Part shown: piece after piece, positions 35,522-43,847 of the stretch
How the letters are laid out: each line of letters opens with the position of its first letter
Position numbering within the stretch: position 1 is the first letter of the stretch
Origin: Nitrosopumilus sp.
GTDB taxonomy: Archaea > Thermoproteota > Nitrososphaeria > Nitrososphaerales > Nitrosopumilaceae
NCBI RefSeq assembly: GCF_025698945.1
Contig: NZ_JAILWM010000004.1
Coordinates: forward strand, 152,103 to 216,102
Reading direction: 5' to 3'
Length of the DNA: 64,000 nucleotides
The notes under the pieces: generated by a model
What the model was told of the DNA's origin: nothing
What the model saw: only the letters and a program-made list of their open reading frames with translations
Databases searched by the model: none
Position numbers and translations under genes: made by a program

Positions 35522-36637
35522 GTGGTAAAGAAAGTTCTAGGCATAGCCATAGGAATAACAGTAATTATTGCAATTGCAGCCGCAGTTTTGACCATTCCTA
35601 ATTCAGAAATTACTCAAAAAACTAATGAAAAAATCGGTTTGGTAATTAACACACCCAGTCAATCTACATCACTACAACAACTCGATCAAGTCTTTACAGA
35701 TGCATCAACTACTGGTATAGGAAGAAGTAATGTGTATCTATTCTGGAACATAATAGAGCCTCAGCGTGGAGAATTTGATTGGAGACAATCAGATATTATG
35801 ATGGGATTAAATGAAAAAAATAATCTAAAAGTCACTTTGTTTTTCTCAATTATTAATGGGGAAACACTTGGCCCTTTTCCTAATTGGATTGGAAAACCAT
35901 CCATTAATGCAATAGGTGAAGACAGACTAGTGGATGCACTTGATGCAATTTTATCTAGATACCACATTATTGATTCAGTAATTATTGCAGGTGAAACAGA
36001 ATCTCAATTTAGATATTATGAGCAAAATATTCCAGTTTACAAGGAATTCTTTACAGGAGTTTATGACAAAATAAAGGAGAAACATCCAGATGTGAAATTT
36101 GGAAATTCATTTGCATTGCATCATACAATAAACAAAGACCTGACAAATATTGTAAAAGAATTAGCAATAGGTGATTTTGTAGCATTTTCATATTTTCCTG
36201 TTGATAGTCTAAATGATATTGTAAAATCTCCCCAGGAAACAAAAGATGATCTTAATCAAATATTTGAGATTATTCCTGATAAAAAAATAGCATTATTTGA
36301 GATTAGCTGGAGTACATCTGATTTTGTTGGTGGAAGTGAAGAATCTCAGAGTGATTTTATGCAACAACTATTCGAGTTTTACTCTAAAAATGAATCAAAT
36401 ATTGAATTTATGACGTGGTATAGACAGTACGACAGACCAGAGAACACATGCGTCTTGGCGCAAGAAAATATTGGTGATGAAAAAATCAGTGTTGGTGGTG
36501 GTTCTGGTTTAGGAAGTAGCGAATATGTAATTGAGAGATTAAACCATTACATCTGTCATGCAGGATTAGTTGATGTTAACGGAAATCAAAAACCAGGATG
36601 GAATGAATTTAAAAATCAAGTAGAAATGATCAATTAA
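35522..36637 (+). CDS. Membrane-anchored TIM-barrel glycosidase-like protein
   Basis: The 371-residue protein has an N-terminal membrane anchor (about 4-24) and an outside domain with features of clan-A glycoside hydrolases: LFWNIIEPQRGEFDW near residue 75, a Glu in IAGETES near 160 in the acid/base position and ALFEISWS near 260 in the nucleophile position. The sugar target is unknown; trimming of surface glycans is plausible. The Nep1 gene starts one base after its stop. Confidence 0.7.
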   Translation: MVKKVLGIAIGITVIIAIAAAVLTIPNSEITQKTNEKIGLVINTPSQSTSLQQLDQVFTDASTTGIGRSNVYLFWNIIEPQRGEFDWRQSDIMMGLNEKNNLKVTLFFSIINGETLGPFPNWIGKPSINAIGEDRLVDALDAILSRYHIIDSVIIAGETESQFRYYEQNIPVYKEFFTGVYDKIKEKHPDVKFGNSFALHHTINKDLTNIVKELAIGDFVAFSYFPVDSLNDIVKSPQETKDDLNQIFEIIPDKKIALFEISWSTSDFVGGSEESQSDFMQQLFEFYSKNESNIEFMTWYRQYDRPENTCVLAQENIGDEKISVGGGSGLGSSEYVIERLNHYICHAGLVDVNGNQKPGWNEFKNQVEMIN

Positions 36638-36638
36638 G

Positions 36639-37307
36639 ATGCTTTCTTTAATTCTAGCCGAATCTTCTATTGAAACAATTCCTAATGAGATGAAAGATCA
36701 TCCCTCAGTAATATCTCATGAAAGAAAACTTGGTAAAGACTATTCAGAAATTCTATTAGATAATTCTTGGCACTTTGCTGCAATGAAAGGAATTAAAAAT
36801 GAAATTAAAAGAGGAAGACCAGATTTAGTTCACTTTTCAATTTTAGAGGCTACAACAATCCCACTATATTATGAAAATAAAATCAAAATCTTCATTCATA
36901 CCATTAATGATAAAGTAATCTCTATTGGAGAAAATGTCCATATTCCAAAATCATATCATAGATTTGAAGGACTTTTTGAAAAATTATTCTTGGAGAAAAA
37001 AATTACTGTTAATGACAATGAACTCCTGTCAATTAAAGATCAATCTTTTTCTGAGCTAGTTAACCAGATCAATCCATCAAAAGTTGTAGGATTATCAACT
37101 ACAGGAAAAACAAGTTCATTTGAAAAAATTAGTACTACATTAGATGATGATTCATGTGTTGTGATTGGAGGTTTTCAGAAGGGACATTTCTCTGATTCAA
37201 TCAAAAATAAATTCACTGATCTATTTTCTGTTGGAGAAACATCACTTGAAGCTCATGTTGTTATTGCTAGAATGCTTTACGAGTATGAAAAAACCATTTT
37301 TATGTAG
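36639..37307 (+). CDS. nep1: rRNA small-subunit pseudouridine N1-methyltransferase Nep1
   Basis: The 222-residue protein matches the Emg1/Nep1 SPOUT family: LILAESSIETIP at the start, KRGRPDLVHFSILEA near residue 64, FIHTINDKVI near 88, and the C-terminal knot with VIGGFQKGHFSD and SVGETSLEAHVVIARMLY. It methylates a hypermodified pseudouridine in 16S rRNA and aids small-subunit assembly. Length fits the family. Confidence 0.93.
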   Translation: MLSLILAESSIETIPNEMKDHPSVISHERKLGKDYSEILLDNSWHFAAMKGIKNEIKRGRPDLVHFSILEATTIPLYYENKIKIFIHTINDKVISIGENVHIPKSYHRFEGLFEKLFLEKKITVNDNELLSIKDQSFSELVNQINPSKVVGLSTTGKTSSFEKISTTLDDDSCVVIGGFQKGHFSDSIKNKFTDLFSVGETSLEAHVVIARMLYEYEKTIFM

Positions 37308-37329
37308 GTCCAGAAATTTGCAATCTGTT

Positions 37330-37403
37330 GCAGTCATAGTATAGCCTGGTTAGTATTCGGGGTTTCCAACCCTGTGACGCGGGTTCGAATCCCGCTGACT
37401 GCA
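37330..37403 (+). tRNA. tRNA-Gly (anticodon TCC)
   Basis: The 74-nt sequence folds as a full cloverleaf. The acceptor stem GCAGTCA/TGACTGC has seven perfect pairs with discriminator A at 37403. The D arm is short (GTAT/GTAT with G-T pairs), the anticodon stem is CGGGG/CCCTG around loop TTTCCAA with TCC at 37365-37367, and the T arm is GCGGG-TTCGAAT-CCCGC. No intron and no encoded CCA are present. It should read GGA and perhaps other glycine codons. Confidence 0.95.
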
Positions 37404-37456
37404 TCTTTATCCATAGTAATGAGAAGTAATTTTTAGGTCTACAAAGTATCATTATT

Positions 37457-37759
37457 GTGAAACCATCAATTAGAAAAATTGCAATGGAAAGAATGCAAAT
37501 TTTAATCGATAATGCAATTTCAAATGCAACAAAAGATCCTGAACTATCTCAACGTCAAGCATCACTTGCAAGAAGGATTAGCTCAAAACACAAAATTAGA
37601 ATGCCATATCATCTTAGGATGGTTTACTGCAAAAAATGCAAGTCCTTTATTGCACCTGGAATAAATTCAAGAATTCGACTAGGAAGGGCATCTGTCAAGT
37701 CGATCAGAATTACTTGTAATCTGTGCGGACATACTTATCGTAAAATAATATCTCAATAA
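37457..37759 (+). CDS. rnp4: RNase P protein component 4 (Rpp21 homologue)
   Basis: The 100-residue basic protein has an N-terminal helical half (RKIAMERMQILIDNA) and a C-terminal zinc ribbon with CKKC and CNLC, the plan of archaeal Rpp21. It joins the RNA subunit to mature tRNA 5' ends. GTG start. It follows tRNA-Gly by 53 nt. Confidence 0.92.
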   Translation: MKPSIRKIAMERMQILIDNAISNATKDPELSQRQASLARRISSKHKIRMPYHLRMVYCKKCKSFIAPGINSRIRLGRASVKSIRITCNLCGHTYRKIISQ

Positions 37760-37793
37760 CATTTTAAACAAATTTCAAACTATGATCTTTTGA

Positions 37794-38324
37794 TTATTCT
37801 GCTTCTTGTTCATTAATTATGGTTAGAGTCATACTTGATTTAATATGAGGAAGAGATCTTATGGCTTTGGTGATGATGTTTTCTAGGGTTTTATCATCTG
37901 GAGCTTCTATTTTACAAATTACATCATAGAACCCAAACACTACATCTGCTTCTTTGACTTCTGGTATATGACTTAGATTCTTCAGTGTTGGAAATTCTTC
38001 TCCTTTATCACAATGAATAACAACATATGCTTGAGATTCATTTTTTCCTAACATCATTCCAATTAGTTTCTCAGATGTCTGAAATAATTCTCCTGATTCT
38101 GAGCGAGTCAAAGTTACTGTGGAATGAATTTTTGGCATCTTTCGAATTACACCTGTAACAACTTTCTGAATTTTTTCCTCTGTCTCAGTTTCAATTTGAA
38201 CAATAATATCGTATAGTCCTAGTGTTCCGTGAACCTCTTTTACAGAATCAATTTTTTTTAGTGATGCAATTACTTCTTTTTCAGAACCCAAATCACAATT
38301 CATCATAACATAGGCTTTTGCCAT
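37794..38324 (-). CDS. Twin Lrp/AsnC ligand-binding domain protein without HTH
   Basis: From the ATG at 38324 the protein has 176 residues and consists of two RAM (Lrp-type effector) domains, about 1-80 (AYVMMNCDLGSEKEVI ... LYDIIVQIE) and about 95-172 (AYVVIHCDKGEEFPTL ... FYDVICKIE). There is no DNA-binding domain. Such proteins may bind amino acids or pair with full-length Lrp regulators. The two halves are clearly internal duplicates. An ATG 15 nt upstream is possible. Confidence 0.85.
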   Translation of the reverse strand: MAKAYVMMNCDLGSEKEVIASLKKIDSVKEVHGTLGLYDIIVQIETETEEKIQKVVTGVIRKMPKIHSTVTLTRSESGELFQTSEKLIGMMLGKNESQAYVVIHCDKGEEFPTLKNLSHIPEVKEADVVFGFYDVICKIEAPDDKTLENIITKAIRSLPHIKSSMTLTIINEQEAE

Positions 38325-38484
38325 TTTTACTTGACACATCCATAAACAGTCTCAAGATATGGTCTGAAAACCATGCTAGTATAACGTGAAATTAGAATAA
38401 AAGATTTCTTTAAAAATACTGATGAAAAAACATCAATTTCAAATTTATTCACAAAAAACCATATTTTTTGCATATTGCCTAATT

Positions 38485-38649
38485 TTATTTTTCGCGTTTT
38501 GGTTTAGAGTGTGCCTTTATCATGTGTTTTTTAGTTCTCTCAGGATCAGTAAACTCCATATTGCAAATTGAACACTTGTTCGAAAATGTAGTTTCTCTCT
38601 TTAAGATATTTTTTACCCTGATTTTATTAAAGGATATTTTTGGCTTCAT
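38485..38649 (-). CDS. 54-aa C2H2 zinc-finger protein
   Basis: This short minus-strand ORF encodes one classical zinc finger: Cys26-x2-Cys29-x12-His42-x4-His47, within a basic chain (start MKPKISFNKIRVKN). A TATA-like TTATAAT lies about 24 nt upstream of the ATG, and box 1 of the TTAACATTGTTAA repeats (38686-38698) ends 36 nt before the ATG. A DNA- or RNA-binding role is likely. It is too short for default gene calling and could be missed. Confidence 0.75.
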   Translation of the reverse strand: MKPKISFNKIRVKNILKRETTFSNKCSICNMEFTDPERTKKHMIKAHSKPKREK

Positions 38650-38685
38650 ATTTTGTTGAGAAATTTTTTGATTATAAGGAGTTGC

Positions 38686-38698
38686 TTAACATTGTTAA
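38686..38698. promoter_or_regulatory. Inverted-repeat box 1 (TTAACATTGTTAA)
   Basis: This perfect TTAACA-T-TGTTAA inverted repeat lies between the C2H2 finger gene (minus) and the winged-helix regulator (plus). It is 36 nt from the finger gene's ATG at 38649, with a minus-strand TATA-like element in between, and 52 nt from the regulator's TTG at 38751, so it may serve both. Confidence 0.75.
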
Positions 38699-38750
38699 TC
38701 AACCATTGATTTGTAAAAATAGTTAAAGACTCATAATATGAATAACATTA

Positions 38751-39086
38751 TTGACTACCTCTAAAAAATATAGAGATCGAATCTATATTGTTAAAGATAT
38801 TATTCTTACTTTATCTGAGTATGGACAACTCAATCAGACTTCATTGTTTAGCTTTTGTGGATTAAATATTTCAAAGCATAAGCAGATATTAGATAATTTA
38901 GAACAAAATGAAATAATAGAAAGAAAAGAAATTGCTGATGGAAAAAGAACAATCACGTTATTCAAAGTGACAAATAAGGGGATGAATTTTTGTCATGAGA
39001 TCTTAGAGCCATATGAAAAACTATTTCCAAGAAGTGGTAAATCCTCTGATTCTTCACTGAATTTAGGATGTATTTTATTCATCTAG
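38751..39086 (+). CDS. Small winged-helix transcriptional regulator
   Basis: The 111-residue protein (TTG start) has one winged helix-turn-helix (about 12-80: YIVKDIILTLSEYGQLNQ, then LNISKHKQILDNLEQNEII and the wing GKRTITLFKVT). It resembles the short archaeal wHTH regulators found next to thaumarchaeal promoters. Its gene lies beside box 1 of the five repeated boxes and is the most obvious candidate to bind them. It overlaps the convergent membrane-protein gene by 12 bp. Confidence 0.8.
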   Translation: MTTSKKYRDRIYIVKDIILTLSEYGQLNQTSLFSFCGLNISKHKQILDNLEQNEIIERKEIADGKRTITLFKVTNKGMNFCHEILEPYEKLFPRSGKSSDSSLNLGCILFI

Positions 39087-39431
39087 GTTATATTTTGATG
39101 AAATATCTTTATCCAAATCTTCTCGTTTTTTCAAATAATTTGCATATCTTTTGTTCCAATTAGAAAGGGATCTAAATTGTTGCACGCCAGTTATCAGCCA
39201 GATCCCCGAAGTAACTAAAACTACTGTCAAGAAAACCATTAAAAGTATTGCAAAATCATTCTCATTTTCAACTAAATGAAAAAATTTTGGATGCGTAAGT
39301 AGATACAGAGAGATTCCTATTGCTAGAGGAGCTAAAATAAGTGCCGAGAATGACACTCCAAGCATTAATCCTCTAAGCTGTTGAATTTTTTCAATAAATA
39401 GATCCATTGAGCTTAGAATGTTATTTCCCAT
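39075..39431 (-). CDS. Small two-helix membrane protein
   Basis: From the ATG at 39431 the protein has 118 residues, with hydrophobic segments at about 21-45 and 59-82 and a charged C-terminal tail (KKREDLDKDISSK). A minus-strand CTAAAAGA about 29 nt upstream supports this start over a TTG at 39440. I recognise no family. It has no TTAACATTGTTAA box in front of it. Confidence 0.65.
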   Translation of the reverse strand: MGNNILSSMDLFIEKIQQLRGLMLGVSFSALILAPLAIGISLYLLTHPKFFHLVENENDFAILLMVFLTVVLVTSGIWLITGVQQFRSLSNWNKRYANYLKKREDLDKDISSKYNLDE

Positions 39432-39561
39432 ATCAGTCAAAGGATCTTACCTCAAAATCTTTTAGATAATGTTCTGTCATATCTGATGATTTATTTTTAA
39501 AAATGGAGTTTTTATAATTTCTCAACATGTTCTCAATTAATAGATAGTATATAGCAAATAC

Positions 39562-39574
39562 TTAACATTGTTAA
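39562..39574. promoter_or_regulatory. Inverted-repeat box 2 (TTAACATTGTTAA)
   Basis: An exact copy of the 13-bp repeat ends 35 nt before the ATG at 39610. The TATA-like TTTTTATAAAAA at about 39579-39590 lies between box and start, centred about 26 nt upstream of the ATG. Confidence 0.75.
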
Positions 39575-39609
39575 TCCATTTTTATAAAAAATCATCTTTC
39601 ATATGATTT

Positions 39610-39714
39610 ATGAGAAAAAAAGAAGACTCTGATGAGGAAAATACTGTAAATAGAAAAAATGATGATTGGTGGAGATTAGAAAAATTTCAGATAGGAAGGA
39701 GTAGATTTCCATAG
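39610..39714 (+). CDS. 34-aa charged ORF upstream of the CKGIC protein
   Basis: The 34-residue ORF starts MRKKEDSDEENTVNRKNDDW and ends RSRFP. It is strongly charged and has no Cys. It would be leaderless behind box 2 and its TATA element, and the CKGIC gene begins 2 nt after its stop. It could be a leader peptide or a small partner protein. Translation is not proven by sequence. Confidence 0.45.
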   Translation: MRKKEDSDEENTVNRKNDDWWRLEKFQIGRSRFP

Positions 39715-39716
39715 CC

Positions 39717-39908
39717 ATGACATTTTGCTGTAAAGGGATTTGTGAAGGAATAAAAGCAGATTCAATTCCAAATATTTCTCGTTACCAATCTGGTCAAAAG
39801 AGATGTTCCTTATGTGCAATTTTTTTGGATACTTCTGATTTAGGATGTCCTTGCTGTGGTGCACGACTTAGAACAAAATCTAGGAATAGACGAATGTATG
39901 AGGAATAA
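39717..39908 (+). CDS. 63-aa Cys-rich CKGIC-family protein
   Basis: The small basic protein has seven Cys: CCKGIC near the start, then CSLC and CPCC, with the conserved frame RYQSGQKRCSLCAIF and CPCCGARLRTKSRN. The protein at 58644 has the same frame (RYASGQRRCQIC and CPCCGYRLRTKPRN), so they form one family, probably a zinc-binding nucleic-acid-binding domain. I know of no assigned function. It is behind box 2 with the 34-aa ORF. Confidence 0.8.
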   Translation: MTFCCKGICEGIKADSIPNISRYQSGQKRCSLCAIFLDTSDLGCPCCGARLRTKSRNRRMYEE

Positions 39909-39915
39909 AATATCC

Positions 39916-39928
39916 TTAACATTGTTAA
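39916..39928. promoter_or_regulatory. Inverted-repeat box 3 (TTAACATTGTTAA)
   Basis: A third exact copy, 8 nt after the CKGIC stop codon and 36 nt before an ATG at 39965. A TATA-like CTAAATATTAA lies at about 39935-39945 between box and ATG. Confidence 0.7.
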
Positions 39929-39964
39929 GTATGTTCTAAATATTAATAAAATAATTATCAAGCA

Positions 39965-40048
39965 ATGCAGAAGCAGACTACTCCAATAGGGAATGAACAA
40001 CTTACAAAATTGCAATTCAGTTTTCTAGTTTTCATTTACTGCCATTAG
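39965..40048 (+). CDS. Possible 27-aa ORF or small RNA behind box 3
   Basis: The ORF (start MQKQTTPIGN) is 27 codons long and I recognise nothing in it. The reason to list it is its promoter: box 3 and a TATA-like element are spaced from the ATG exactly as at the other four boxes. The transcript could equally be a small RNA. Confidence 0.3.
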   Translation: MQKQTTPIGNEQLTKLQFSFLVFIYCH

Positions 40049-40103
40049 ACACTGGTAATTCCCAAAATTGCTTCTGCAGAATTAATTTTACTTCATTTTT
40101 AAG

Positions 40104-40116
40104 TTAACAATGTTAA
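40104..40116. promoter_or_regulatory. Inverted-repeat box 4 (TTAACAATGTTAA)
   Basis: This is the same repeat on the other strand; only the central base differs in direction. It lies 36 nt before the GTG at 40153, with TATA-like GTATATTA at about 40121-40128. Confidence 0.75.
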
Positions 40117-40152
40117 CTGAAGTATATTAGAGATAAATTTTATGAAAAATGA

Positions 40153-40317
40153 GTGGCAAAATTAAGATGTAATGACTACGGATTTGAATGTGATTTTGTA
40201 GCTGAGGGGGAAATTGAGCAAGTTATTGAAAAATTTGGTCAACACTCCGAAGAAGAACATGGAATTGATTACTCAAAAGAAGCAATCATGCATGTAATTT
40301 TGAGAAAAACCACCTGA
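40153..40317 (+). CDS. DUF1059-type small protein, 54 aa
   Basis: The GTG-initiated 54-residue protein has the DUF1059 pattern: CNDYGFECDF at 6-15, an acidic middle and a helix with EEEHGIDYS near 33-41. Members are small Cys/His/Asp proteins thought to bind metal. TATA at about 40124 lies 28 nt upstream, giving a leaderless message controlled by box 4. Confidence 0.8.
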   Translation: MAKLRCNDYGFECDFVAEGEIEQVIEKFGQHSEEEHGIDYSKEAIMHVILRKTT

Positions 40318-40403
40318 TTGATTCAATATAAAAATAAAATATGATCAAGTATAGATTTTATTAAAACATATTTTATCTAATTCCAATTTGAATTTCTCAA
40401 AGC

Positions 40404-40416
40404 TTAACATTGTTAA
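40404..40416. promoter_or_regulatory. Inverted-repeat box 5 (TTAACATTGTTAA)
   Basis: The fifth copy ends 37 nt before the TTG at 40454. The TATA-like TGTATATATT at about 40420-40430 lies between, about 28 nt upstream of the start. Confidence 0.75.
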
Positions 40417-40453
40417 TTATTGTATATATTCATCAAAATAGCTTCTTTGAATA

Positions 40454-40939
40454 TTGAAAAGTAAACAGAAAAATAAATCAAAATTATCTAAAGGTAATTT
40501 AATTTCTATTTGTGTGGTTACAGTTATTGCGGTATTTTTAGTATTTTATATATTGAATTCATTTGTTCCAGTAAATTCTGAAACTATTGTTTTTTCTCCT
40601 CCTTCGAACATATTTTTAAAAGCCGTAAAGTCATCCCAAGGAGATTATTATTATCAGTCAACAAAAGGTGGTAAAACAGTTCCCTCTGTTCAAGGTATGT
40701 CGCCATCAATTAAAGTATCAAAAGGAAATCTTGTTCAGATTCATTTGATTAATGAGGAAAAAAATGAACTTGGTTTGTCTTCCAAACATAATTTGAATAT
40801 TGATGAATTTAATGTTCATACAAAAGATCTAGGATATTTTCAAAGTGAGTCTATCACATTTTTGGCAGATAAAACCGGTTCTTTTGAATACTATTCATCA
40901 ATTCATCCCAACATGAAGGGAATTATTGTTGTAGATTGA
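40454..40939 (+). CDS. Membrane-anchored cupredoxin-fold protein lacking the Cys ligand
   Basis: The 161-residue protein has a basic N-terminus, one membrane helix (about 15-37) and an outside cupredoxin-like domain (about 45-161). The C-terminal motif is YYSSIHPNMKG, where type-1 copper proteins have a Cys in place of a Ser, so His and Met are kept but the blue-copper Cys is gone. Upstream His residues (KHNLNIDEFNVH) could be ligands. It may bind Cu(I) or another metal or have lost metal binding. It is the last gene with a TTAACATTGTTAA box. TTG start. Confidence 0.8.
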   Translation: MKSKQKNKSKLSKGNLISICVVTVIAVFLVFYILNSFVPVNSETIVFSPPSNIFLKAVKSSQGDYYYQSTKGGKTVPSVQGMSPSIKVSKGNLVQIHLINEEKNELGLSSKHNLNIDEFNVHTKDLGYFQSESITFLADKTGSFEYYSSIHPNMKGIIVVD

Positions 40940-41122
40940 GTAATTAATTTTGATGATAATTCCAAAAAATAAATTATATTTTATAAATTGAAACAGATTC
41001 AAATTTATGCCCAAATCCTTTAAAGAAAAATCATAGATCGACTATTTTGCGTTGAGTTGTGTTTAGCAAACTAGACAGAATACCTCAATGATTTATAAGA
41101 CGATTCTCAATTTTTTGAGTTC

Positions 41123-41575
41123 ATGGCAAAGGTTTACGACGTACCAGCAGATGTATTGATTGGAAAATTAGCTGCAATTCTCAAGAATGAAGATATTCCA
41201 GCTCCTAGTTGGATTCCATTTGTTAAAAGCGGAGCTCATGCCGACAAACCACCACAAGACAGAGATTGGTGGTATACTAGATGTGCATCATTAATGAGAA
41301 AAATTTACCTTAACGGACCTATTGGAGTAAATGAATTGAGAAATGAATATGGTGGTGGTAAACCATCAGGATATGGAGCAGCACATCATAAAGATGCAGG
41401 CGGTGCAATTATCAGAAATGCAATTCATGGATTAGAAAAATTAGGTTACATTGAGCAAGTTGAGAAAAAAGGGCGTATTGTTTCAAAACAAGGAATGCAA
41501 AAACTTGATAGACTTGCAACAGAAATTCTTAAAGAACTAATTGTTGAAAATCCTCAATTGAAAGTATACACTTAG
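41123..41575 (+). CDS. rps19e: 30S ribosomal protein S19e
   Basis: This 150-residue protein matches eS19: KVYDVPADVLIGKLA at the start, DRDWWYTRCASLMRKIY near residue 52 and GGAIIRNAIHGLEKLGYIE near 93. It is needed for small-subunit maturation. The PDCD5 gene follows 7 nt later, a pairing common in archaea. Confidence 0.97.
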   Translation: MAKVYDVPADVLIGKLAAILKNEDIPAPSWIPFVKSGAHADKPPQDRDWWYTRCASLMRKIYLNGPIGVNELRNEYGGGKPSGYGAAHHKDAGGAIIRNAIHGLEKLGYIEQVEKKGRIVSKQGMQKLDRLATEILKELIVENPQLKVYT

Positions 41576-41582
41576 ATTCAAA

Positions 41583-41864
41583 ATGAGTTTTCCAGAACCT
41601 GACGAATTACCTCAACATAACCAAGATCACGAATCAGTAGCACAAAAAGAGCAAATTCTAAAACAAATTCTTTCACCAGAAGCTCGAATGAGATTAAACA
41701 ATATCAAAATGGTAAAAGCTGAACTATGTGAATTAGTTGAACAATATTTGATCGGAATGGCAACTCAAGGAAAAATTAGAGGTCAGCTAAATGATGATCA
41801 ATTAAAGCAAATATTACTTTCAATTCAACAACCAAAACGCGATTTTAAGATAAACCGAGTCTAA
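41583..41864 (+). CDS. PDCD5/TFAR19-family DNA-binding protein
   Basis: The 93-residue protein has the family core ILSPEARMRLNNIKMVK followed by VEQYLIGMATQGKI and a C-terminal basic tail. It forms a small three-helix bundle. The archaeal role is not well defined, though it is usually co-transcribed with S19e, as here. Confidence 0.93.
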   Translation: MSFPEPDELPQHNQDHESVAQKEQILKQILSPEARMRLNNIKMVKAELCELVEQYLIGMATQGKIRGQLNDDQLKQILLSIQQPKRDFKINRV

Positions 41865-41902
41865 ATCTAAAATTTATTTATGGGTAAGATCTGGGGTTAG
41901 TC

Positions 41903-42982
41903 ATGAAAGCAGTTGTTTATAATGAATATGCACCAGATGATAATTTTGCTAAAATCCTCAAAGTCCAGGATATAGATGATCCAAAACCAAAAGCAGATGA
42001 AGTAGTTTTCAAGGTTAAAGCTGCTGCTCTTAATTATAATGATATTTGGGGAATGAGAGGTCAACCAGTTCCAGTTCCATTACCACATGTGTCAGGCTCT
42101 GATGCAGCTGGAGATGTAATCGCAGTTGGTGATGATGTTAAAAATATCAAAGTAGGAGATAGAGTTGTATCACACTCTAACATGTCCTGTAGAGTTTGTA
42201 AAGCATGTACTGATGGACGAGAGTTTGATTGTATTAACAGAACAATTTGGGGATTCCAAACTGGTCCAACTTGGGGTGCATTCCAAGAAATTACCCATTT
42301 ACCAGAAGTTAATGTTTCAAAAATTCCAGAAGGTGTATCATATGATGATGCAGCTGCTGCATCTATGACACTATTGACATCATGGCATATGCTAGTTGGT
42401 AGAGCAAAAATTACACCTGGACAAACTGTCTTAATTATGGGTGGTGGTTCTGGAGTGGGAAGTTTTGGAATTCAAATTGCAAAGTTATACAACTGTGATG
42501 TTATTGCAACTGCAAGTCCAGATAAACTAGACAAATGTCTAGAACTTGGGGCTGATTTTGCAGTAGATCATAGAAAAGAAGACTGGCATAAAGAAGTAAG
42601 AGCCATTTCTAAAGATCTAGCAAAGAAAAAAGGTGAAGCACCAGGAATTGATCTCTCATTTGATCACATTGGTGAAACACATTGGAATAAACAATTAACA
42701 TTGTTAAAGTATGGTGCAACTCTAGTTTCTTGTGGTGCAACAACAGGATATAATGCACAAACTGATCTTAGACACATATTCTTTAAGGGAACTAACATCT
42801 TGGGTTCCACACAAGGAACAAAAGCTGAACTTGATCAAGGCCTTTACTGGATGGGTCAAGGAAAAATTAAAGCTGCAATTGACTCTACTTATACATTTGA
42901 GCAAGCAGCAGAAGCTCACACAAAGATGTTAACTGGAAAAGGTCTCTTTGGCAAAATCTTAATGAAGCCAGAGGGCGCTTAA
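41903..42982 (+). CDS. Zinc-type MDR dehydrogenase/reductase (crotonyl- or acryloyl-CoA reductase-like)
   Basis: The 359-residue protein is a medium-chain dehydrogenase/reductase. It has the GroES-like half with a structural zinc lobe (CRVCKACTDGREFDC) and the Rossmann half with GGGSGVGSFGIQIA near residue 175. Length and sequence resemble crotonyl-/acryloyl-CoA reductases, so it is a candidate for the acryloyl-CoA reductase step of the HP/HB carbon cycle; an alcohol dehydrogenase is the alternative. The following gene starts 7 nt later. Confidence 0.85.
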   Translation: MKAVVYNEYAPDDNFAKILKVQDIDDPKPKADEVVFKVKAAALNYNDIWGMRGQPVPVPLPHVSGSDAAGDVIAVGDDVKNIKVGDRVVSHSNMSCRVCKACTDGREFDCINRTIWGFQTGPTWGAFQEITHLPEVNVSKIPEGVSYDDAAAASMTLLTSWHMLVGRAKITPGQTVLIMGGGSGVGSFGIQIAKLYNCDVIATASPDKLDKCLELGADFAVDHRKEDWHKEVRAISKDLAKKKGEAPGIDLSFDHIGETHWNKQLTLLKYGATLVSCGATTGYNAQTDLRHIFFKGTNILGSTQGTKAELDQGLYWMGQGKIKAAIDSTYTFEQAAEAHTKMLTGKGLFGKILMKPEGA

Positions 42983-42989
42983 TTATTTA

Positions 42990-43847
42990 ATGACGCAGCT
43001 TTTTCGCAGTCTTATTTTTGTTCCAGGGAACAATCCTAGGTTTTTAGAAAAAGCAAAAAAGCTTCAAGCTGATATTGTTTGTTTTGATTTAGAAGATTCA
43101 GTTCCAGATAATGAAAAAGCAAATGCAAGAAAACTAATCAAATCTGCATTAAAATCTAGAAAATCTTATGAATCATCAATTTTCGTTAGAACAAATTCTC
43201 CCACATCAGGTAAAATTCCATCAGATCTCAACGAAATAGTACAAAAAGGAATAGATGGAATTGTTATTCCCAAGGTTAACAACACCAAGGAACTAAAAAC
43301 AATTGAACAAATCCTCTCAAAGCTTGAAAAAACACGAAAACTAAAATCTATTCAATTGATTCCTTCTATAGAATCTGCTGAAGGGGTAGTCAACACCTAT
43401 AGCATTTCATCATTTGGAAAAAGAATATCTGCAGTAGTTTTTGGTGTTTTTGATTTACTAAATGACATTGGTGTTGAATATACAAAAGATTCTGAAGGGG
43501 CAAAATATTCAAGGTCAAAAATTCCAGTTGATGCTCATGCTGCAGGAATTGTAGCAATTGATGCAATTTGGCAAGATCTTAAAGATATTAGAGGATTAGA
43601 AAATGATTGCAAGATGGGAAAGAGTCTTGGCTACTCTGGAAAAAGTGTAATTCATCCAGATCAAATCCCTGTAGTTCATAAATTATTTCATCCAAACAAA
43701 AGTGAGATAATTTGGGCTGAAAAAGTATGCAAAACATATCTTGAATCAACCAAGAAAGGAAAAGGAGCAACAACTGTTGATGGAAAAATGATCGATGAGG
43801 TTCATTTCAAACAAGCAAAAGCCCTTCTTGATTTGGTAAATAACTAA
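42990..43847 (+). CDS. HpcH/HpaI (CitE-like) acyl-CoA lyase
   Basis: The 285-residue protein has the CitE/malyl-CoA lyase pattern: RSLIFVPGNNPRFLEKA near the start, VCFDLEDSVPDNEK near residue 32, IPSIESAEGVVNT near 127 and GKSVIHPDQI near 218, with Glu and Asp residues placed for Mg2+. It splits or forms 3-hydroxyacyl-CoA esters; the actual substrate (citramalyl-CoA, malyl-CoA or similar) is not clear. It probably shares a transcript with the MDR gene. Confidence 0.88.
   Translation: MTQLFRSLIFVPGNNPRFLEKAKKLQADIVCFDLEDSVPDNEKANARKLIKSALKSRKSYESSIFVRTNSPTSGKIPSDLNEIVQKGIDGIVIPKVNNTKELKTIEQILSKLEKTRKLKSIQLIPSIESAEGVVNTYSISSFGKRISAVVFGVFDLLNDIGVEYTKDSEGAKYSRSKIPVDAHAAGIVAIDAIWQDLKDIRGLENDCKMGKSLGYSGKSVIHPDQIPVVHKLFHPNKSEIIWAEKVCKTYLESTKKGKGATTVDGKMIDEVHFKQAKALLDLVNN

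Follow-up and report, generated by a model that had tools for sequence, protein, structure and literature searches.

A palindromic promoter box in Nitrosopumilus and its probable winged-helix regulator: a proposed small regulon with a likely non-coding RNA

Why do five identical 13-nucleotide (nt) palindromes stand within 1.73 kb of an archaeal genome, each at nearly the same distance from the beginning of a small gene? The question arises in a stretch of 64,000 nt from Nitrosopumilus sp. (assembly GCF_025698945.1, contig NZ_JAILWM010000004.1, positions 152,103 to 216,102; hereafter the window), in which the palindrome TTAACAWTGTTAA, here called the box, lies between short genes (Table 1). The five boxes are probably bound by a dimer of the winged-helix protein encoded at 38751, a putative activator of a small regulon to which a likely non-coding RNA belongs; this reading is drawn from sequence comparison. 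Little of transcription control has been mapped in the Nitrososphaerota (Thaumarchaeota), archaea responsible for much of nitrification. In this case box, likely regulator, candidate membrane partner and a likely RNA that matches no known family form a single unit, and the box yields a promoter rule for archaea that is exact to the base.

The number of boxes is far above chance. The window holds six exact copies, whereas 100 shuffles gave a mean of 0.04 and at most one copy, none of them reaching six; the first-pass annotation of this DNA was right that chance cannot explain the copies. The five that it listed (boxes 1 to 5; box 4 is written TTAACAATGTTAA) are all exact and all in the places it gave, and it overlooked a sixth at 42695-42707. 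We rejected this sixth copy as a regulon member because it sits within an open reading frame (ORF) of 359 residues (41903-42982). If up to two mismatches are allowed, the window shows no excess (8 boxes found, 8.46 expected), so the signal is the exact palindrome. The genome of the window (G000, 1.75 Mb) contains seven exact copies, five of them in the 1.73-kb cluster. The seventh, at G000:C4:57198, was likewise rejected, as it has no TATA element at +9 and lies between repeats beside cdc6 that are considered below. Box 1 forms a conserved block in an alignment of 20 orthologous intergenic regions, all chosen for having the box.

The geometry of the promoters is the same at each box. A gap of 35-37 nt between box and start codon had been claimed, and the measured values are 36 nt for the C2H2 gene on the minus strand, 35 nt for the 34-residue ORF, 36 nt for a 27-residue ORF, 36 nt for the DUF1059 gene with its GTG start and 37 nt for the cupredoxin gene with its TTG start; the TATA-like element said to lie in between was found for all five boxes. 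Box 2 had been read as facing the 34-residue ORF. This holds to the right, but a second TATA-like element lies on the left, followed by a 31-residue ORF and a 121-residue membrane protein. For relatives, we took the 124 exact boxes in the fetched stretches of 30 genomes (26 with a close regulator ortholog and four others with the RNA), which hold 154 exact boxes in all; 20 more were read separately. A strict TATA pattern, T[AT]4[ACG] beginning nine bases past the box, is present on at least one side of 116 of the 124 boxes and on both sides of 38, compared with a background of 2.9% of positions in the same loci. ATG-initiated ORFs of at least 28 residues begin 33-38 nt from the box in 91 of 248 flanks versus 153 of 4946 shifted control flanks. 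Their distance peaks at 35 nt (49 flanks), then 36 nt (20 flanks), and the RNA units begin 36 nt from the box in 23 of 31 cases. Since the start codon, or the first base of the RNA, follows about 27 nt after the start of the TATA element, we infer that most box-linked transcripts are leaderless. As regards the B recognition element (BRE), positions 3 and 4 after the box hold an A in 57% and 65%, respectively, of 110 flanks.

The box also travels with the neighbouring winged-helix gene. We compared 60 genomes of the genus and 250 of the family, and set the limit for a close ortholog at E < 1e-50 after a gap in the matches had been seen (9.7e-54, then 7.5e-45). The box is present at least once in 20 of the 60 genus genomes. 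Three or more copies occur in nine of them (G000, G002, G003, G007, G013, G015, G042, G046 and G052), and the other 51 have 0-2. These nine are exactly the nine with a close winged-helix ortholog, which is found in none of the 51 others (Fisher p 7e-11, genome relatedness not corrected for), and the same nine alone match the RNA model strongly (E < 1e-13). In the family set, a close ortholog is present in 26 genomes and the RNA (E up to 1e-4) in 29, with both in 25. The presence of DUF1059 was tried as a co-occurrence test and rejected as uninformative, because 58 of the 60 genomes have this family. In genomes that hold the neighbouring regulator the boxes are clustered rather than scattered, and they recur at orthologous promoters of sister genomes; clustering and recurrence together sustain the earlier proposal of a regulon whose boxes keep a fixed distance from the TATA element. 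Relatives of the unit are found in the isolates Nitrosopumilus adriaticus, N. cobalaminigenes, N. koreensis AR1, N. salaria BD31 and Nitrosarchaeum koreense. The arrangement varies: in G093 the RNA is present on three contigs, with 36 nt between every copy and a box, and in G083 the RNA and its box are about 333 kb away from the regulator. In G042 (L031, L038), pieces of the unit are duplicated over three contigs, with two winged-helix genes and three RNA copies.

Which genes lie behind the boxes was counted over those genomes whose fetched loci showed the gene in question; the box was allowed up to two mismatches. The link is constant for the C2H2 gene next to box 1 (29/29 genomes), for a second C2H2 gene (13/13) and for the 34-residue RLEK peptide (20/20), whose transcript likely also carries the cysteine-rich CKGIC protein. 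It is frequent for the RNA (28 of 30), for a protein of 145-155 residues without Pfam match (11 of 12), for the two-helix membrane gene (24 of 28, with box and TATA element upstream), for the cupredoxin (11 of 14) and for DUF1059 (18 of 25). Each genome has from two to eight or more promoters with a box, often two-faced. Members of the 145-155-residue family (L048:13764-14201 and relatives) share the motif S[IV]C[DEG]. The cupredoxin of the window reads YYSSIHPNMKG where relatives have YYCSIHPDMKG or similar, a replacement of the cysteine copper ligand by serine seen in this lineage only among those read.

The protein encoded at 38751 had been suggested as the regulator, and it gains indirect support from the co-occurrence above and from a paralog with a variant box. 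It passes the cut-off for HTH_45 (PF14947), a profile that 21 of 21 relatives match at E 0.01, and falls just below that for MarR (PF01047; 22.6 vs 24.6 bits), which matches 16 of 21 relatives at E 0.01. Its AlphaFold model (pLDDT 80) resembles MarR proteins, with Foldseek matches that include HpaR, OhrR, ZitR and AbfR, and UniRef names its orthologs ArnR1-like. The paralog, at 47-54% identity, occurs in 12 of the 60 genus genomes; the variant box GTAACAWTGTTAC occurs in nine, in seven of which it is within 300 nt of the paralog gene. The predicted recognition helix begins GLNN[VA]KHK in paralogs and GLNI[ST]KHK in close orthologs, a difference that could possibly cause the altered outer base of the paralog box. 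These variant boxes make the specificity of the regulator directly testable. Among Nitrososphaerales homologs six loci were inspected, and four of them have [GT]TAACAAGGTTAA some 0.5 kb upstream. The second constant neighbour is a protein with two hydrophobic segments (107-139 residues), convergent with the regulator gene in 29 of 29 loci where the winged-helix ORF was found (31 tried), three Nitrososphaeraceae/Nitrososphaerales loci among them.

Behind box 3, the 27-residue ORF had been listed as a protein target. Its frame is not conserved, and the segment 39964-40081 is likely a structured non-coding RNA instead. The unit opens at the base expected for the start of a leaderless transcript, and a long stem closes it. 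In an alignment of 40 rows, which includes five antisense matches and two RNAs of a second type, 99.7% of the cells of the closing stem are paired, and two of the nine pairs are changed on both sides, both in the two second-type copies. RNAalifold on a MAFFT alignment gave this stem alone, with nine pairs and none changed on both sides; the stem of the G058 unit, seen by eye, is a further variant. The claim of covariation is carried by the inner stem, AGGAAA-N/N-UUUCCU in most relatives. As first drawn this helix was paired in 77.7% of cells and out of register in many rows, and it was judged by a per-sequence test on 33 rows (the 7 weakest of 40 omitted). Here the own arms of a sequence beat arms swapped from relatives less than 75% identical in 29 of 33 cases (mean score 17.6 vs 14.2), as in AGGGAAAAU/AUUUUCCCU versus AGAGAAAA/UUUUCUCU. 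A T-rich stretch follows in 35 rows, three of them antisense readings, and the eight sequences that were folded singly all surpass their shuffles in stability (z -3.2 to -6.4). No Rfam 15 match covers 39964-40081, even at E 5, in a search of 36000-43000 of the window. Most genomes have one match to the RNA model and none has more than three; weak matches in five further genus genomes (E 4e-4 to 8e-3) were taken as chance. The second type is found in G007, G145 and G146. Its copies at L027:7447-7564 and L048:10844-10969 have the closing stem AAUGUAGA...UCUACAUU and also lie behind a box, whose other side in N. salaria leads to a 29-residue cysteine-rich ORF. In a weak test for targets of the conserved RNA loop, a search of the genome of the window for its reverse complement (up to three mismatches, no G-U pairs) returned the RNA itself at zero mismatches and four places at three, none at a clear translation start.

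Several observations weigh against so simple a picture. The regulator occurs without the RNA in G094, and the RNA without a close regulator in G091, G092 and G095 (homolog at about 2e-37) and in G086 (85% complete), where no regulator is among the matches listed. G169 and G187 have three boxes each with no winged-helix protein among the matches listed. In addition, three or four boxes accompany a more distant homolog in several genomes of genera g2 and g15, so that no clean rule emerges. At L010:819-1000 of G058 (87% complete), a box, a TATA-like element and an RNA-like unit (AATGTGGAAGT...ACTTCCACA) occur with no close regulator. The strict geometry holds for 7 of 20 exact boxes beyond the clusters of the 30 genomes, where it precedes, for example, another DUF1059 gene (L189) and related proteins of 238 and 254 residues (L188, L190). 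It holds for 2 of the 11 boxes read in the 51 regulator-less genus genomes, which contain 13 exact boxes; one of the two is the L010 box of G058. The exact variant box is missing in 5 of the 12 paralog-bearing genomes and is present in two genomes without the paralog, and no solved structure matches the profile of the regulator at E 0.01. As to autoregulation, in most loci 50-54 nt separate the box from the start of the winged-helix gene, which has no TATA element at +9.

Alternatives exist for the RNA, for the role of the box and for the protein that reads it. The 27-residue ORF might after all encode a small protein, and the stems might belong to the DNA as such, for instance to a mobile or recombination element, with no RNA gene at all. 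The unit does open with an ATG, its closing arms form an inverted repeat in the DNA, and a CTCCAA block stands in the same phase to the ATG in 18 of the 30 sequences that have it. The remaining 12 depart from this phase (10 stand in phase 1 and 2 in phase 2; in three further relatives, of 33, the block was not found), and the stop falls anywhere from codon 14 to 34 or the frame runs through. This shifting phase and variable stop argue that the ORF is not a conserved protein; with the covariation of the inner helix, and with copies too few for the scattered multicopy pattern of a mobile element, we hold this alternative to be improbable. A service in DNA replication or chromosome structure is suggested by the seventh copy of the genome, and to this we give hardly any credence. 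At C4:57198 (L037:7199), the exact box stands between two repeats (ATTTCCAYTCCAGG) that resemble origin recognition boxes (ORB), beside a 402-residue Cdc6 and the large subunit of DNA polymerase D; the region is likely a replication origin. The same ORB-like element holds seven further single box copies in other genomes (L014, L016, L024, L025, L179, L180 and L185), with cdc6 shown for the genome of the window only. Copies in this element have no +9 TATA geometry and are present in regulator-less genomes too, and each of the five window boxes precedes a gene at fixed spacing. That another protein reads the box, be it the small C2H2 finger, the Lrp-like protein at 37794-38339 or an alternative TFB, is quite improbable. 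The C2H2 gene is as constant a companion of the box as the winged-helix gene, but a single zinc finger fits a 13-bp palindrome poorly; the Lrp-like protein has ligand-binding Pfam matches only and no helix-turn-helix (HTH) match, and it is the winged-helix paralogs that variant boxes accompany.

With the 38751 protein as the probable reader, it might still be a repressor, a dimer of which at the BRE-proximal box would block TFB/TBP until a ligand or an oxidant frees the promoter. Most MarR proteins act in this way, and the structural matches include redox- and zinc-sensing MarR repressors; Cys36 and Cys81 are conserved in most close orthologs, and the TATA elements appear intact. Cys81 is missing in the paralogs, and the box stops eight bases before the TATA element without overlapping it. 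According to the accessible text of PMC5937170, archaeal activators usually bind upstream of BRE/TATA and repressors overlap the core promoter. There, TFB-RF1 of Pyrococcus activates from a 13-nt palindrome, TCTGAANTTCAGA, at a conserved distance just upstream of BRE/TATA, and in the available portion of PMC6396743 the boxes of the activator ArnR lie upstream of the BRE in Sulfolobus acidocaldarius. Because a box in this position leaves BRE and TATA free, as for TFB-RF1 and ArnR, activation is favoured, and we regard repression as rather unlikely.

Activation by a winged-helix dimer would follow a promoter logic of known kind, and the likenesses have limits. As the accessible text of PMC5937170 describes it, the TFB-RF1 regulon of Thermococcales shares with ours a 13-nt palindrome, a regulator gene near its target and a small, phylogenetically conserved regulon. 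It has another palindrome and comprises two operons, with a weak BRE and tested activation; here, 2-8 or more promoters per genome would be served, often two-faced, and a likely RNA is among the putative targets. The fixed placement just upstream of BRE/TATA is common to both. ArnR/ArnR1, in the available portion of PMC6396743, resemble the present system in the winged HTH, the inverted-repeat boxes upstream of the BRE and the two membrane helices. ArnR combines HTH, HAMP, sensor and two C-terminal helices in one protein, whereas we find a soluble, HTH-only protein of 111 residues and a separate two-helix gene; its boxes are paired and 15 bp long (TCGAC-N5-GTCGA), and no archaellum genes are among the targets seen. 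With the MarR family the protein shares the predicted fold and a small palindrome of the kind read by dimers; it is shorter, and HTH_45 is the better match. In the consulted part of PMC7785015, the copper-limitation motif of Nitrososphaera viennensis is likewise a promoter motif (-35 to -70) shared among genes of an ammonia-oxidizing archaeon; it reads TTCSGSMTTTGWACYANT, is not a palindrome of this kind and differs from the box. The metal, redox or stress signal proposed earlier, a guess from the nature of the products, is not borne out here.

In the mechanism that we propose, a winged-helix dimer would sit on the palindrome just upstream of BRE/TATA and activate the promoter rather than repress it. 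With a TATA element on both sides, a single palindrome could drive two divergent promoters, which may be why the box is symmetric. By analogy with ArnR, the two-helix membrane protein beside the regulator may gate the regulon. Itself under box 2, it might sense a signal or tether the regulator at the membrane, and our guess is that the two proteins are like an ArnR protein split in two. A bolder version, which we offer tentatively and think unlikely as a whole, has the soluble winged-helix activator and a separate two-helix sensor form such a split ArnR-like membrane switch and drive two-faced palindromic promoters; the product of the mini-regulon would be a new ribonucleoprotein, made of an RNA family of about 100-130 nt (at least two types) and the co-induced miniature zinc proteins. 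We found no description of box, regulon or RNA in a literature search that covered few subscription journals and did not use the box sequence as a query. As far as these searches show, novelty attaches to the box, to the assignment of its regulator, to its two-faced use and most of all to the RNA family.

Table 1 Features of the box cluster and its surroundings (window coordinates; a dot marks features without strand)
Feature	Position	Strand	Remarks
C2H2-like zinc-finger protein, 54 aa	38485..38649	-	Pfam zf-C2H2 below cut-off
TATA-like element of C2H2 gene (TTATAA)	38672..38677	-	nine bases from box 1
Box 1, between divergent C2H2 and winged-helix genes	38686..38698	.	exact match
Conserved AATAGTTAAAG, between box 1 and winged-helix gene	38718..38728	+	possible promoter of winged-helix gene; alignment read by eye
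Winged-helix protein, 111 aa, HTH_45/MarR-like	38751..39086	+	Pfam HTH_45 28.9 bits, cut-off 25.5; TTG start guessed
121-aa protein, two hydrophobic segments, candidate membrane partner	39075..39440	-	convergent with winged-helix gene
31-aa ORF	39433..39528	-	first on leftward transcript expected from box 2
Leftward TATA-like element of box 2	39548..39553	-	
Box 2, TATA-like elements on both sides	39562..39574	.	exact match
Rightward TATA-like element of box 2 (TATAAA)	39583..39588	+	
34-aa ORF	39610..39714	+	C-terminal RLEKFQIGRSRFP
Cysteine-rich CKGIC protein, 63 aa	39717..39908	+	no Pfam match over cut-off
Box 3	39916..39928	.	exact match
TATA-like element of RNA gene	39937..39942	+	
Likely structured RNA, 118 nt, overlaps 27-aa ORF	39964..40081	+	closing stem AAUGCAGAAGC/GCUUCUGCA, inner stem GGGAAU/AUUCCC, U-rich tail
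Box 4	40104..40116	.	exact match
TATA-like element of DUF1059 gene	40125..40130	+	
DUF1059 protein, 54 aa, GTG start	40153..40317	+	Pfam PF06348 30.6 bits, cut-off 21.1
Box 5	40404..40416	.	exact match
TATA-like element of cupredoxin gene (TATATAT)	40423..40429	+	missed by the strict pattern
Cupredoxin-like membrane-anchored protein, 161 aa, TTG start	40454..40939	+	Pfam Cupredoxin_1 26.7 bits, just under cut-off 27

A tRNA gene (Rfam RF00005, 64.3 bits) stands at 37330-37403, close to the left end of the unit.

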